Positions 58,211 to 63,905 of a stretch of 64,000 bases of DNA are shown here, piece after piece (within the stretch, counting starts at the first letter, position 1; the number at the start of each line of letters is the position of its first letter). The DNA lies in NCBI RefSeq assembly GCF_900009265.2, contig NZ_LR735009.1:170476-234475 (forward strand), in the 5' to 3' direction. The position numbers and the translations under genes were made by a program. Under the pieces are notes generated by a model. That model did not search any database. It saw nothing but the letters and a program-made list of their open reading frames with translations, and had not been told where the DNA came from. The DNA comes from Planktothrix paucivesiculata PCC 9631 (lineage in GTDB: Bacteria; Cyanobacteriota; Cyanobacteriia; Cyanobacteriales; Microcoleaceae).

Positions 58211-58822
58211 ATGAGTGCATCCAGTAGCCCTGATGATAATATTAATCAACCTATGACTTCCTCTCCTGCTTCAGAAGAAAGTTTAAATAAACCCCTCCCC
58301 TATGTTGTCCAAGAAGATATCATTTATCGGGCCGTTGAGCGAAAAACTGTTTGTAGGGTTTTGAGTCAAGCTCATATTGATGTTTCAATTCGTTGGTCAA
58401 CCGCCCATCTTTATATTGGGATTCCTAGTACAATTTTAGCGGCTGTTGCTAGTGTGCAAGCCATTAATAGTTTAGGGGGAGAGTATAAATTAGTATCTGT
58501 CATTATTGCAATTTTAGTGGCAATTCTCGCCCCTCTCTTGACTTTTTTAGATCCTAATGGTAGGGCTAATAATCATTTGAATGCTTCTCGGGTCTATGAA
58601 CAAATGGCAGATCAATATGACTCTTTTATTCTCAAATGTCGCTTAGAACCTCGATCAATTCAAGAGGAATTTAATGATTTAACCCAGCTTAATTTTTCCT
58701 ATAGTGAAGGCAAAAAATCCTTACCCGCCTGTCCAGAATGGGCATATCAGAAAGCTATTAATACCAATAATGCCGTACAAAAACTGATACCAATGGCGGC
58801 AAAAAATTCCGCCAGACAGTAA
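58211..58822 (+). CDS. SLATT-domain two-TM protein
   Basis: 203 residues. A polar N-terminus is followed by VCRVLSQAHIDVSIRWSTAH, two membrane helices at ~66-87 and ~93-113, and the post-TM segment FLDPNGRANNHLNASRVYEQMADQYDSF. This layout (helix, 2TM, Arg/Tyr-rich helix) fits the SLATT domain, a 2TM effector predicted to make pores in nucleotide-signalled antiviral or conflict systems. No nucleotidyltransferase (SMODS) or SLOG partner is visible, so activation would be independent or by the neighbour. No Shine-Dalgarno evident. Confidence 0.72.
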   Translation: MSASSSPDDNINQPMTSSPASEESLNKPLPYVVQEDIIYRAVERKTVCRVLSQAHIDVSIRWSTAHLYIGIPSTILAAVASVQAINSLGGEYKLVSVIIAILVAILAPLLTFLDPNGRANNHLNASRVYEQMADQYDSFILKCRLEPRSIQEEFNDLTQLNFSYSEGKKSLPACPEWAYQKAINTNNAVQKLIPMAAKNSARQ

Positions 58823-58973: not shown

Positions 58974-59621
58974 ATGACTGATTTAGAGGGATTAGAAATT
59001 ACTTCAGGGGAAATTAAACATTGGAGTGGTATTCATAAAAATTTCCTGTACCGACCTGCGATCGCTAAAAAATTGATGGGGGAAGGGTTAAAAACCTTAA
59101 TTATTGCCGGGTTATTATTAATTAGTTATTGGATTTGGAGTTTAATTTTCCCAGAATTTTCCTTAATATTTATTACCATTTACTTAATTATTATCCTTCT
59201 ATTAATTATTGAAGATATTATCAAAATTTGGTTAACTTTAACCCGTCCCCAGTGTGTCAAACTCTTGAATCAAGTTGATCGTTATAATGCCATTGTCAAA
59301 GCCTTAAATATTTATAATCAACTCGAAGCGACGGAACATCCCCCAGCAAAATTAGAAAATCGAGATAGAATTATTCAATCCTTGAAATTAATTAGAGCCG
59401 AATTAATTAGGGGGTTAAAAATAGAACGTATCTTGAAAAAACATAAAAAATTTATTGCTAAAAATCCAGATTTTTTTGATCCAAATTTTACCCTCCTCAC
59501 CTTCTTACAAACAGAAAAACCCACAAAAGAACAGGGAATCCTCCTTTATCAAGCCTTTGAAATAGCCTCGGAAGTTCATCAACAATTAAGGCAACTTCAG
59601 GAGCAAAAAAAATCCCATTAA
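58974..59621 (+). CDS. Two-TM helical protein of unknown function
   Basis: 215 residues. After a polar start come two membrane helices (~41-62 and ~63-84: IIAGLLLISYWIWSLI; IFITIYLIIILLLIIEDI) and a long helical, basic C-terminus (KLIRAELIRGLKIERILKKH). The ATG lies in repeat DNA (actgatgactgat), so the true start is uncertain. Second 2TM gene after the SLATT gene, same strand, 151 bp apart. A joint membrane complex is possible. No family assigned. Confidence 0.72.
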   Translation: MTDLEGLEITSGEIKHWSGIHKNFLYRPAIAKKLMGEGLKTLIIAGLLLISYWIWSLIFPEFSLIFITIYLIIILLLIIEDIIKIWLTLTRPQCVKLLNQVDRYNAIVKALNIYNQLEATEHPPAKLENRDRIIQSLKLIRAELIRGLKIERILKKHKKFIAKNPDFFDPNFTLLTFLQTEKPTKEQGILLYQAFEIASEVHQQLRQLQEQKKSH

Positions 59622-61025: not shown

Positions 61026-61090
61026 GGGTGCGTAGGCGCAATTAATTAGTAAATCCAGTAATTAACAATTTGCTCCTCGCACCATCTTTT
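61026..61090 (+). terminator. Stem-loop repeat after DUF1537 kinase gene, copy 1
   Basis: ggtgcg (61027) and cgcacc (61078) enclose an imperfect inverted repeat around agtaaatccagtaatt, followed by atctttta. Position 15 bp after the kinase stop suggests a terminator. A close copy is at 61571-61637. Confidence 0.5.
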
Positions 61091-61283
61091 ATTAAGAAAA
61101 ACTGCCGCCCCGGGGTTTGATGATGGGAATTTATTCCATGTCGGTCGAAAAAATTACTCTCCAAATACTTCAGTTGGGAGAGAACTCGAAAGCTGGTATC
61201 AGGTGCTGGTAGAATTGATCATAAGTTGTACTCAGCTAGTTTGGGTTAACTTAGTGTTCTATATGATTTATAAGAGGTAATGT

Positions 61284-61523
61284 ATGTCAAGTATTCGGAA
61301 TATTGCCAGTAATCCAGGTGACACTTGGGATGATTTGAGTTGGACAGATATGAACGATATGGAGCAAGCTTTGTGGGTCACTTTAGGCTGGAATGAAGCT
61401 AGTTGGGAAGAAGAATCTGAAGCTCCCGATTCTAATGAGAAATATTGGGAGGAATTAACCCAAAAGGAACGGGATGCAGCAACAAAACTCGGTTATAACC
61501 AATCTTATTGGGATGAGGATTAA
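61284..61523 (+). CDS. Small acidic Trp-rich protein with two LGW/LGY motifs
   Basis: 79 residues. It holds two related motifs: DMEQALWVTLGWNEASWEEE and WEELTQKERDAATKLGYNQ, each made of W...L...E..A...LG-aromatic-(x)3-W. This pattern occurs in proteins of algae and cyanobacteria as a small helical unit. A good aagaggt lies before the ATG, so expression is likely. Function unknown; the aromatic repeat suggests protein-protein contact. Confidence 0.72.
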   Translation: MSSIRNIASNPGDTWDDLSWTDMNDMEQALWVTLGWNEASWEEESEAPDSNEKYWEELTQKERDAATKLGYNQSYWDED

Positions 61524-61570: not shown

Positions 61571-61637
61571 GGTGCGTAATGTGCAATTAATTGATGAGTA
61601 AATCCATCATTAACAATTTGCTCCTCGCACTTTTTTT
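61571..61637 (+). terminator. Stem-loop repeat with T-run after Trp-rich gene, copy 2
   Basis: ggtgcg (61571) and cgcac (61626) close a long imperfect hairpin (tgatgagtaaatccatca is nearly palindromic) followed by ttttttt, so it fits a rho-independent terminator. Same core as 61026-61090. Confidence 0.6.
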
Positions 61638-61718
61638 ATTGATTAATAAAATTTTGGGTGCACTTTTTAAGCGGTTATAATATTATTATATAATTTTAAC
61701 ATTATAGTAGGTAAGCCC

Positions 61719-62117
61719 TTGACTCAAGCGCCAGACTATGAAACTGAAAGATCTGCCTTAATTGCAGAACTTCAAGCCAGAGGAATCAGGCATAATCCTG
61801 AAAAGATTGTGCGAATTGCTAGATGTGCGGATGATCAAATTGTATTCTTAGAAACGGGAGATGAAAACCGAGGTTTACAGCATATTTTAGCGAAAGCCGA
61901 TCAATTTGCTAGAATAGGAATCAATGTAGATGAAATTGTTGATGTTGTTATGGGAGCAATTACCAAAGGAAGCATTGTTAGTTTCCAAGGTAGGGACACA
62001 GTTAACCCCCGTCCAGTTTATCAACTTATTCATAAGGGTGAGATCAAATATATTGCAGTTACAATGGGTAATAATGGATATATTGTAGGGGCAAATCCGA
62101 GAACAAAACTAAAATAA
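61719..62117 (+). CDS. Stand-alone polymorphic-toxin-like C-terminal domain
   Basis: 132 residues from a TTG preceded by aggtaa; no ATG is available, and the frame is open for ~15 codons upstream. The sequence matches my recollection of toxin tips in contact-dependent and polymorphic toxins: HNPEKIVRIARC, GLQHILAKADQFARIGIN (His55), and RPVYQLIHKGEIKYIAVT then NNGYIVGANP. Several such domains are RNases of the BECR fold; the specific family number is not certain. There is no delivery or linker region, so it is an orphan or cytoplasmic form. An immunity-type gene follows 21 bp downstream. Confidence 0.7.
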   Translation: MTQAPDYETERSALIAELQARGIRHNPEKIVRIARCADDQIVFLETGDENRGLQHILAKADQFARIGINVDEIVDVVMGAITKGSIVSFQGRDTVNPRPVYQLIHKGEIKYIAVTMGNNGYIVGANPRTKLK

Positions 62118-62138
62118 TCTTTATAGAGGTTCAATTAT

Positions 62139-62699
62139 ATGCCTAAAAAAATTAGACTGATGACAGATTATGGATGTTATCCTTTATGGTGGGATGAACC
62201 TGATCAAGTGGGTGATTTAGATCCAGAATCTTTACCTTTAAGTCAAGAAATCATTCAACGTTTGTATCATTGGGCTGATGCTTTTGATGCACGATTAAAC
62301 TTTGCTGATCCTTCTGATTCTCCTGAAGTTACACCGGAAGAAGTAGAGCATTTTGAATGGCAAGGATTAAGTTTATGGAAACAGTTAAATCAGGAATTAG
62401 CACCTAATTATGAAATAGTTTATTTTAGTAGTCATTTTCATCAAGTTTTTACTGATCCAGTTGAATTAGAGGAAAAATTAAAGCTAAATCTGATAAAATT
62501 TAATCAAATTTCTTGGGAAGATGCCAAGGAAAATATAACTCAATTGTTTGACCAAGTTGTGGCGAATCGAGATATTATTGTTATTAATCGTGCTGAAGGG
62601 GAAAGTGTGGTTTTAATAGCGATAGAGGAATTGAATCATTTAATAGCAACTGCTCATTTAGAAAATGAAAAACAAACGATTGGAACCCAAAATTATTAG
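62139..62699 (+). CDS. Immunity-like domain fused to Phd/YefM-type antitoxin domain
   Basis: 186 residues with gagg 9 bases before the ATG. Residues 1-~105 (RLMTDYGCYPLWW, DPESLPLSQEIIQRLYHWAD, YEIVYFSSHFHQ) resemble small acidic proteins encoded beside polymorphic toxins. Residues ~123-176 (ISWEDAKENITQLFDQVVAN, ESVVLIAIEELNHLI) match a Phd/YefM domain, which normally represses its own operon and neutralises a toxin. The fusion would give both binding and autoregulation. It sits right behind the toxin-like gene. I know of no described case, but this is unverified. Confidence 0.72.
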   Translation: MPKKIRLMTDYGCYPLWWDEPDQVGDLDPESLPLSQEIIQRLYHWADAFDARLNFADPSDSPEVTPEEVEHFEWQGLSLWKQLNQELAPNYEIVYFSSHFHQVFTDPVELEEKLKLNLIKFNQISWEDAKENITQLFDQVVANRDIIVINRAEGESVVLIAIEELNHLIATAHLENEKQTIGTQNY

Positions 62700-62820
62700 A
62701 TCAGAATCTTTAATTACCATTACATTAGATCCTGATGTTGCTGAAGTTTTTAAAACGTCTGAAGCGGTTAATCATGCGTTACGTTCTTTACTTTCTGCTA
62801 TTCCTCAAACAAATTCGTAA
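62665..62820 (+). CDS. 51-residue antitoxin-like protein
   Basis: Overlaps the preceding gene by 35 bp. It reads MKNKRLEPKIIRSESLITIT, then LDPDVAEVFKTSEAVNHALR, and resembles small cyanobacterial proteins found next to toxin or nuclease genes. The pattern SLITITLDPDVAEVF is coherent protein, and the overlap suggests coupled translation. It is below common length cut-offs for gene calling. Function unknown. Confidence 0.6.
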   Translation: MKNKRLEPKIIRSESLITITLDPDVAEVFKTSEAVNHALRSLLSAIPQTNS

Positions 62821-62906
62821 GATATGCAAGGTTAAACCACACGCACCAACTTTTTATTCTTTAAGATAATAGAGTAGGTGTGCTACGCTTACATAGACGA
62901 CAACAA

Positions 62907-63905
62907 CTAAAGCCGTTCTAACCAATGTTCCAAAGCTATATTCACTAGATTTTCTAGCTGACTAGGAGGTTCTGTAGAATCTGTAACTTGAATAAATTTT
63001 TCAAAATGTTTGTATGAATATAATTTTTGTTGGGAAATATAACCTATCCAGTAGATATTTTTCCAATCATTTTTCAAAAAAATTACCATTCTACCGATAG
63101 CATATTTTAAATTTCTATTTCGTCTGTCTGGAATTGGTAAATATAAATATAGATCTGGGTCTTTAGAACCTATCTTCTGACAAATTTCAATACAGATATT
63201 ATTTTTACCTCGTCCGTACTTAATAACTCCTCGTCTGCTATTAATTTCTTCAATTTTTTCATGAAAACATAAAATATATTTTCTCAGCCTTAAAATATAT
63301 TCTTGTTGCTCTGATGATTGATTTTCAATGATTGTCAATAAAAAGCCGGGTGGATCAGATAAATTGGATTCCAGATCCGAGATCTCATTTTCATTATAAG
63401 GAATTTCTGCTTGGGTTACTTGCTTAGTATCAAGATGAGTTAAAGATAAAAAGAAACGGCTTTCTTCTTTAACGATTTTAAACCATAAAAACTCTAAAGC
63501 TAGTTTACTATATTCTTGATCAATAAAATTTTGTTGATGGAAACTTGGCATAATAGCCATTAATCGAATAGAGTTACTATAATCAATCCCTAAATCAAAA
63601 GGCTTAACAGTAATTAGATTATTATAGTAACGAGTTAACTGTTGCACTACTCTTGGATCTTCTACATTTTTTAGTTCTATTATAACTAATTGTTTCTGTT
63701 TGTCCAATGCTAAAATATCACAAAAACCTCCATTAACTTTATATTGACGTTTTAAAGGTGTAAGTTCTAATAAATTGCTCAAATTATCCCAAATAAAATC
63801 TTCTAAGGCTTCTTCACTACCAAACCCCCATTGATTCCGCCCTTTCTTAAACAGTTTGTTAATTTTTGGAGGACGTATCGATTGACTATTGCCTGAAAGT
63901 TGCAT
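62907..63905 (-). CDS. PD-(D/E)XK nuclease-like protein, NucS/DUF91 type
   Basis: 332 residues as drawn from the ATG at 63905. The nuclease core is near the N-terminus: SEEALEDFIWDNL, then Asp63 (GGFCDILAL) and Glu77-x-Lys79 (IIELKN), the PD-(D/E)XK signature, followed by QLTRYYNNL. The C-terminal half is unlike NucS and could recognise DNA. The frame stays open upstream to the window edge (GRRYSKILKTDQYLQEYK), so an earlier start beyond 64000 is possible. The accessory surroundings fit a defence or repair nuclease. Confidence 0.78.
   Translation of the reverse strand: MQLSGNSQSIRPPKINKLFKKGRNQWGFGSEEALEDFIWDNLSNLLELTPLKRQYKVNGGFCDILALDKQKQLVIIELKNVEDPRVVQQLTRYYNNLITVKPFDLGIDYSNSIRLMAIMPSFHQQNFIDQEYSKLALEFLWFKIVKEESRFFLSLTHLDTKQVTQAEIPYNENEISDLESNLSDPPGFLLTIIENQSSEQQEYILRLRKYILCFHEKIEEINSRRGVIKYGRGKNNICIEICQKIGSKDPDLYLYLPIPDRRNRNLKYAIGRMVIFLKNDWKNIYWIGYISQQKLYSYKHFEKFIQVTDSTEPPSQLENLVNIALEHWLERL

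Follow-up and report, generated by a model that had tools for sequence, protein, structure and literature searches.

The window analysed here, a stretch of 64,000 nucleotides from Planktothrix paucivesiculata PCC 9631, carries a small cassette that is probably an intracellular type II toxin–antitoxin (TA) module built from a CDI toxin/immunity pair, in which the CdiI immunity domain is joined in one frame to a Phd/YefM antitoxin domain (Table 1). The toxin ORF is followed, after a gap of 21 bp, by the fusion ORF on the same strand, an AGG lies 7 bases 5' of the toxin's TTG start codon, and the end of the fusion ORF shares 35 bases with a 51-aa ORF. As in type II TA modules, the genes of the toxin and of the proteic antitoxin are small, adjacent and co-directional, without delivery.

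Table 1. Features of the cassette, in window coordinates.
Feature	Position	Strand	Remarks
TATAAT-like -10	61676-61681	+	Just before toxin start
Imperfect inverted repeat TATAATATT/AACATTATA with TATAAT-like -10	61676..61706	+	Position common to Planktothrix copies
Free-standing BECR-fold toxin, CdiA-CT homologue (Serratia marcescens BWH57)	61719..62117	+	132 aa, TTG start
CdiI-YefM fusion, presumed antitoxin	62139..62699	+	186 aa
CdiI immunity domain of fusion, residues 1-97	62139..62429	+	phmmer 6.2e-18 to 7m5f_A; Foldseek 8.5e-11
Phd/YefM DNA-binding and dimerisation half, about residues 121-175	62499..62663	+	Pfam PF02604 4e-8; Foldseek 1.0e-3 to 2a6q_A YefM
51-aa ORF, BrnA-like ribbon-helix-helix (RHH) half	62665..62820	+	PF14384 E 8e-4, below cut-off

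The toxin is homologous in sequence and fold to chain C of PDB entry 7M5F (7m5f_C, 'Toxin CdiA'; phmmer, 3.9e-26) and is predicted to be an RNase of the BECR fold. Its nearest Pfam family is PBECR1 (E 0.0068, below the cut-off), and it matched neither an NCBIfam model nor, at E 1, BrnT of Pfam. The preliminary description had taken this gene for a toxin tip without any delivery region, which agrees with a stop-to-stop frame of only 148 aa; a CDI toxin, by contrast, forms the C-terminal end of a CdiA exoprotein that CdiB exports. The source genome holds a single toxin match and four TPS-domain matches, all of the latter on contigs other than that of the cassette. The candidate catalytic residues proposed for the 7M5F toxin are H47, E51, H52, and R89 (PMC8616854). 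In the phmmer alignment H47 and R89 are kept in the window toxin (as H55 and R98), E51 is replaced by K59, and H52 falls in a gap; with two of the four candidate residues changed, the activity of the window toxin could differ. Of 40 aligned toxins, 35 carry the second His; it is missing from the window copy, L106, L142, L154, and L155, and the His-less branch in Planktothrix is under purifying selection.

The second protein is composed of two recognisable halves, as the preliminary description had read it in proposing an immunity domain fused to Phd/YefM beside the toxin. Residues 3-97 match the 7M5F immunity protein (7m5f_A, 'CdiI'; phmmer, 6.2e-18), and residues 123-175 match YefM (2a6q_A; phmmer, 4.9e-4). 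The Phd domain had been placed at about residues 123-176, and Pfam PhdYeFM_antitox does match residues 124-175 with 33.4 bits against a cut-off of 29.8, the NCBIfam YefM model scoring 27.2 bits, far under its cut-off of 121. The predicted YefM fold of the C-terminal half is intact when compared with 2a6q_A by Foldseek. The protein stops 11 residues past the matched YefM half (position 175), and the canonical C-terminal toxin-binding tail, which in YefM includes a YoeB-binding peptide (PMC4803016), is absent. Nor does a partner yoeB follow, the listed downstream ORFs being the 51-aa ORF and an opposite-strand NucS_C protein. Ten Phd/YefM matches were found in the source genome, seven of them above the cut-off. 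Searches with the toxin and the fusion gave no sequence match at E 1 to the MqsR, MqsA, BrnT, or BrnA chains in the PDB, and none of the PADLOC models matched the toxin, the fusion, or the 51-aa protein at E 0.01.

At E 1e-5 or better, the toxin gave 86 matches spread over 63 of the 388 genomes of the order, and the longest open toxin frame among these matches is 221 aa, a decayed read-through in G371, followed by one of 190 aa. The 70 loci examined cover 73 of the 86 matches and are not 70 independent places, since L024 and L052 overlap. A CdiI homologue, mostly unfused in cyanobacteria, adjoins the toxin in 69 of them, the exception being L069, where the contig ends just past the toxin. The co-occurrence of toxin and immunity gene anticipated in the preliminary description was therefore found, the fused form being found only in Planktothrix. 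CdiI itself was detected in 88 of 388 genomes of the order and in 35 of 386 of the phylum, the two sets overlapping. A contig scan with one genome per species gave 212 CdiI relatives, the best 80 of which, at 79 loci, were examined. In these loci, cyanobacterial toxin frames without a visible break span 117-170 aa, broken ones being shorter, and about 21 of the 79 have a lone CdiI without an adjoining toxin. Among the same best 80 of 212, the toxin domain ends longer frames in Yersinia rohdei (522 aa, upstream end open) and at two Chloroflexota loci (404 and 357 aa). It also stands at the end of frames on four viral contigs (one of 532 aa and three of 374 aa) and was found in six plasmid records, two each from Pantoea, Rhizobium, and Streptomyces. 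In two of the six, one Pantoea and one Rhizobium record, it lies under a hemagglutinin-repeat protein, and in one Streptomyces record under an ALF-repeat protein. No match was obtained when plasmid DNA was searched with 61600-62900, plasmid proteins with the YefM half, or phage GenBank proteins with the toxin, and the scan of viral contigs with the fusion returned no relative.

Some cyanobacterial toxin frames open with an ATG right after a stop codon (125-aa frames in L017, L019, and L042), which indicates that these toxins are genes of their own. Free-standing toxin frames across the order, with long frames only elsewhere, show the loss of delivery to be a family trait in cyanobacteria, and one that is probably older than the fusion. 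The earlier idea that the fusion converted a delivered toxin into an intracellular one must accordingly be given up, as the toxin is free-standing in cyanobacteria generally and mostly accompanied by an unfused CdiI. Several arrangements deserve separate mention. At L038 and L193, both of G169, toxin and cdiI are divergent with their starts close together, unlike the other examined loci; L052/L024 (G371:C65) contains three tandem toxin-cdiI cassettes, one of them decayed into the in-frame CdiI-toxin-end frame of 221 aa. On a Chloroflexales contig, a 320-aa frame whose N-terminal part is CdiI-like and is followed by a long C-terminal extension (L177:4684-5643) lies downstream of a toxin-CdiI pair.

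The genus group Planktothrix comprised ten genomes, six of which encode CdiI-YefM: G000 (the window), G075, G140, and G260 with 186 aa, G273 with 173 aa, and G245 with 256 aa. The recurrence of the two-domain frame in six of ten genomes argues that the fusion is not a sequencing accident. In G245 an RHH part continues in one frame after CdiI-YefM, and the YefM part has diverged to 67% identity to the window copy. Both G126 and G190 keep the toxin beside a 139-aa CdiI from which the YefM part is absent, so the YefM part seems dispensable for neutralisation. Over 36 bases, the tail end of the G126 CdiI together with the sequence just behind it agrees with the RHH region of G245 at 30 positions, which points to deletion of a YefM part once carried by its ancestor. 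Of the remaining genomes, G239 retains a CdiI remnant of 56 residues, and G367, which is 73% complete, gave no CdiI match. Outside the genus, CdiI frames longer than 150 aa were read by eye in G096, G057, G169, G232, G181, G128, G247, G387, and G371, shorter ones being unable to hold both domains, and none was found to carry a Phd/YefM domain. The CdiI of L191 (G096) ends in a different, acidic C-terminal tail, EIDEKEWLRAAASNPVFDFLKDPEEDIYTLADGQPFND, with no Pfam match, and the toxin at that locus is seemingly an N-terminal remnant.

The substitution patterns of the Planktothrix copies point to purifying selection on the toxin, on CdiI, and on the YefM half. Pooled dN/dS values with codon-bootstrap intervals were 0.42 (0.26-0.73) for the toxin (seven copies, the recombinant left out), 0.39 (0.21-0.83) for CdiI residues 1-110 (five copies), and 0.32 (0.15-0.83) for the YefM half (five copies, without G245). 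The estimate for CdiI residues 35-110 over six copies was 0.49, with an upper limit of 1.05. The recombinant is G260, in which the toxin from about codon 25 through CdiI to about codon 34 has been exchanged as one block, the YefM part being unchanged. In 60-base windows, identity between G260 and the window copy drops from 0.93-0.98 to 0.49-0.75 inside the block and returns to 0.95-1.00, with 0.79-0.92 further out on both sides. The exchanged block is closest to cassettes from outside Planktothrix (65% for the toxin, 79% for CdiI), and the replaced toxin has the second His. CdiI of 7M5F contacts its toxin by way of the beta1-beta2 loop and three 3-10 helices, and K5, D9, Y10, W16, and D25 are conserved (PMC8616854). 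The block thus covers part of the interface, and the joint exchange of toxin and CdiI would be expected of an interacting pair.

A likely origin of the fusion is visible in Nostocales, where a profile made from four Planktothrix YefM parts retrieved unfused Phd/YefM genes next to CdiI. Anabaena catenula (L126) and Nostoc sp. NMS9 (L152) show the gene order toxin, cdiI, yefM, yoeB, with both YefM and YoeB exceeding their Pfam cut-offs. A yefM also follows cdiI in L118 and, broken, in L117, with a remnant in L143, and stands directly before a toxin-less cdiI in L111, L135, and L148. Several of these cassettes adjoin the same gene, which we take to be chlB, and the loci may thus derive from one ancestral site. 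The Planktothrix fusion would be best explained by the in-frame joining of a neighbouring yefM to cdiI, with loss of YoeB and of the YoeB-binding tail. L118 (3923-6390, Dolichospermum circinale) is unusually dense, with toxin-cdiI, yefM, a Gp49-type toxin plus a regulator-like ORF, and a second cdiI within 2.5 kb.

The YefM residues R10 and R31 are essential for DNA binding (PMC4803016). The position of R31 is occupied by Arg in five of the six fusions, the window included, and by Pro in G245, and that of R10 by Arg in the other five and by Lys in the window, which makes DNA binding by the YefM half of the fusion plausible. The inverted repeat TATAATATT/AACATTATA before the toxin was considered as an operator. 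It is perfect in G075 and G140, where 0 and 7 of 300 shuffles were as good, and not significant in the other six of the eight copies (65-104 of 300 shuffles as good, 104 in the window), the best repeat in L092 being another one; it was therefore dropped as evidence. TGTACA, the core recognised by E. coli YefM, is absent from the 300 bases upstream in all eight copies. The promoter and terminator scans gave seven hits against 8.2 expected and two against 1.0 expected, respectively.

An overlapping 51-residue protein had been listed after the fusion, and the ORF is indeed present with its overlap; it cannot be regarded as a conserved component, as counterparts occur at this locus in only two other genomes of the ten, as RHH parts in G140 and G245. 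In G245 the counterpart is the part fused in frame to CdiI-YefM, and the window ORF lacks 69 bases (23 residues) that G140 has. The match to BrnA_antitoxin (E 8e-4; 20.2 bits against a cut-off of 26.1) covers only profile positions 26-51 of 68 and thus neither a full domain above the cut-off nor, in the window, one with an adjoining BrnT. Another relative is the antitoxin beside a BrnT-like toxin in G126 (L102), with BrnT at E 8.8e-8 and BrnA at 0.0023, both below cut-off. Judged from these matches, the 51-aa ORF is probably what is left of a second antitoxin gene, namely a BrnA-type RHH half.

Other elements were recorded around the cassette. A short repeat with ends like GGTGCG...CGCACC occurs upstream in two copies (61027-61093 and 61571-61640, 83% alike) that bracket a 79-aa ORF (61284-61523) without a Pfam match; sister genomes have more copies at their cassettes, including one directly 3' of the shortened CdiI in G126 and G190. 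Adjoining the module on the opposite strand, 62907-63905 (-) encodes a protein with a NucS C-terminal nuclease domain (38.1 bits, cut-off 24), which also matches PADLOC PDC-S18 (2e-10). Further upstream, a two-TM SLATT-like protein (58211-58822, +) matches PADLOC 2TM effector models (7.8e-22) and is followed by a 215-aa ORF (58974-59621) without a Pfam match.

If the cassette works as a type II TA module, the toxin, probably translated at a low rate from its TTG codon, would remain inside the cell, where the CdiI half of the fusion would bind and mask it, as the 7M5F complex suggests. The YefM half would dimerise and bind the promoter DNA of the module, so that free or toxin-bound antitoxin could repress the operon. 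Such an arrangement may have arisen after a toxin-cdiI cassette was brought next to a yefM-yoeB module and the two became fused, YoeB and the YoeB-binding tail then being lost.

The same locus can be read more simply, as a plain toxin-CdiI pair whose CdiI ran into a neighbouring yefM relic and has since carried an idle YefM tail. The loss of the YefM part in G126 and G190, its shortening in G273 (173 aa) and divergence in G245, the second antitoxin relic adjoining the fusion, and the operator repeat that is not significant in six of eight copies are all compatible with such a neutral read-through. However, an idle tail is hard to reconcile with a two-domain frame kept in six of ten genomes, with purifying selection on the YefM half (0.32, upper limit 0.83), or with an intact predicted fold that retains Arg at the R31 position in five of six copies, and we consider neutral read-through rather unlikely. 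The presence of YefM-YoeB pairs next to the unfused cassettes of L126 and L152, together with the ten Phd/YefM matches in the source genome (seven above the cut-off), raises the further thought that the YefM half still neutralises YoeB toxins encoded elsewhere in the genome, making the fusion a bridging double antitoxin; the YoeB-binding C-terminal peptide of YefM (PMC4803016) is nevertheless absent from a protein that ends 11 residues past the YefM half, which renders this role very improbable.

Toxin and immunity genes might also be stored undelivered, to be recombined onto a two-partner-secretion exoprotein, a role that has been suggested for orphan CDI modules. Some cdi loci are known to include orphan toxin/immunity modules (PMC9086364), TPS-domain proteins are encoded in all ten genus genomes, and both the exchange of toxin plus CdiI as a block in G260 and the lone CdiI at about 21 of the 79 loci that represent the best 80 of 212 relatives are what such a reservoir could leave behind. 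But orphan modules are typically without a start codon according to the part of PMC9086364 drawn on here, whereas the Planktothrix toxin has one, preceded by an AGG, and its promoter region is conserved. The source genome contains a single toxin match, no long toxin frame occurs among the 86 matches of the order, and a cassette kept silent would have no use for a DNA-binding domain. Storage is thus an improbable explanation, and an intracellular TA module is the preferred reading.

Compared with known systems, the cassette is closest to CdiA-CT/CdiI of Serratia marcescens BWH57 (7M5F), with which it shares homologous toxin and immunity domains of the same fold and the toxin-first gene order. 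In BWH57 the toxin forms the tip of CdiA and is paired with a 98-residue CdiI (PMC8616854), whereas in Planktothrix the toxin is free-standing, CdiI is joined to YefM, and E51 and H52 are not kept. The C-terminal end of the fusion recalls the YefM-YoeB module through the DNA-binding half of YefM; it differs in having no adjoining YoeB and no YoeB-binding tail and in the position of the YefM half, C-terminal to another antitoxin-like domain. The overall plan is that of MqsRA and BrnTA, with the toxin first and an antitoxin that bears its toxin-binding domain N-terminally and its DNA-binding domain C-terminally: mqsR precedes mqsA, MqsA binds its toxin N-terminally and DNA C-terminally (PMC2791442), and BrnA, which ends in an RHH domain, regulates its own operon (PMC11980606). 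In the present case, however, the antitoxin halves are CdiI and YefM, with no PDB sequence match to those systems at E 1, and the DNA binding is putative.

That orphan polymorphic toxins can work as type II TA systems is already known from the orphan Rhs toxin/immunity pairs of Salmonella (PMC7043789), which resemble the Planktothrix cassette in that an undelivered polymorphic toxin tip acts intracellularly with its immunity protein. Those pairs seem to involve other toxins, and no DNA-binding domain on the immunity protein is mentioned in the part of that source drawn on here. BECR toxins fused to antitoxin domains are also known, one of them ParE-like with Phd/YefM (PMC11980606). These TA-like toxin tips and BECR-antitoxin fusions lower the novelty of the Planktothrix fusion. 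The preliminary description knew of no earlier report of the architecture, and no account of an immunity-YefM/Phd fusion was found in the open-licence literature, as far as its accessible parts extend.

A hint of a connection with phages comes from two IMG/VR records of 47,107 and 60,722 bases, in which a toxin-free CdiI homologue (L185:5995-6342 and L186:5995-6342) lies in the phage early region and is 60% identical to the window CdiI. The two records contain the same ORFs and are probably the same phage. The gene is flanked by genes for an integrase-like protein and a DnaB-like helicase; a regulator is nearby and, in the 47-kb record, a large terminase follows further on. The toxin was not matched in either record at E 1, both of which may be fragments. 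A toxin-free CdiI in a phage would fit counter-defence, and protection of the lysogen against delivered toxins would fit equally. A broader picture can be offered as tentative and, taken as a whole, somewhat doubtful: CDI pairs would constitute a widespread chromosomal TA system of cyanobacteria, possibly serving phage defence; in Planktothrix the immunity protein would have become a transcription factor through the capture of YefM, with an RHH added in one genome; and temperate phages would carry a toxin-free CdiI as an antidote.

According to the portion of the 2012 survey of polymorphic toxins drawn on here, nothing at the time indicated that any immunity protein serves as a transcription factor (PMC3482391), and the CdiI-YefM fusion is a direct candidate for such a protein. 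The unfused neighbours in Nostocales suggest a route from a delivered weapon to a self-regulated intracellular switch. Since fused, shortened, and RHH-extended forms exist within one genus, the idea that unrelated antitoxins exchange their DNA-binding domains can be put to the test in Planktothrix.
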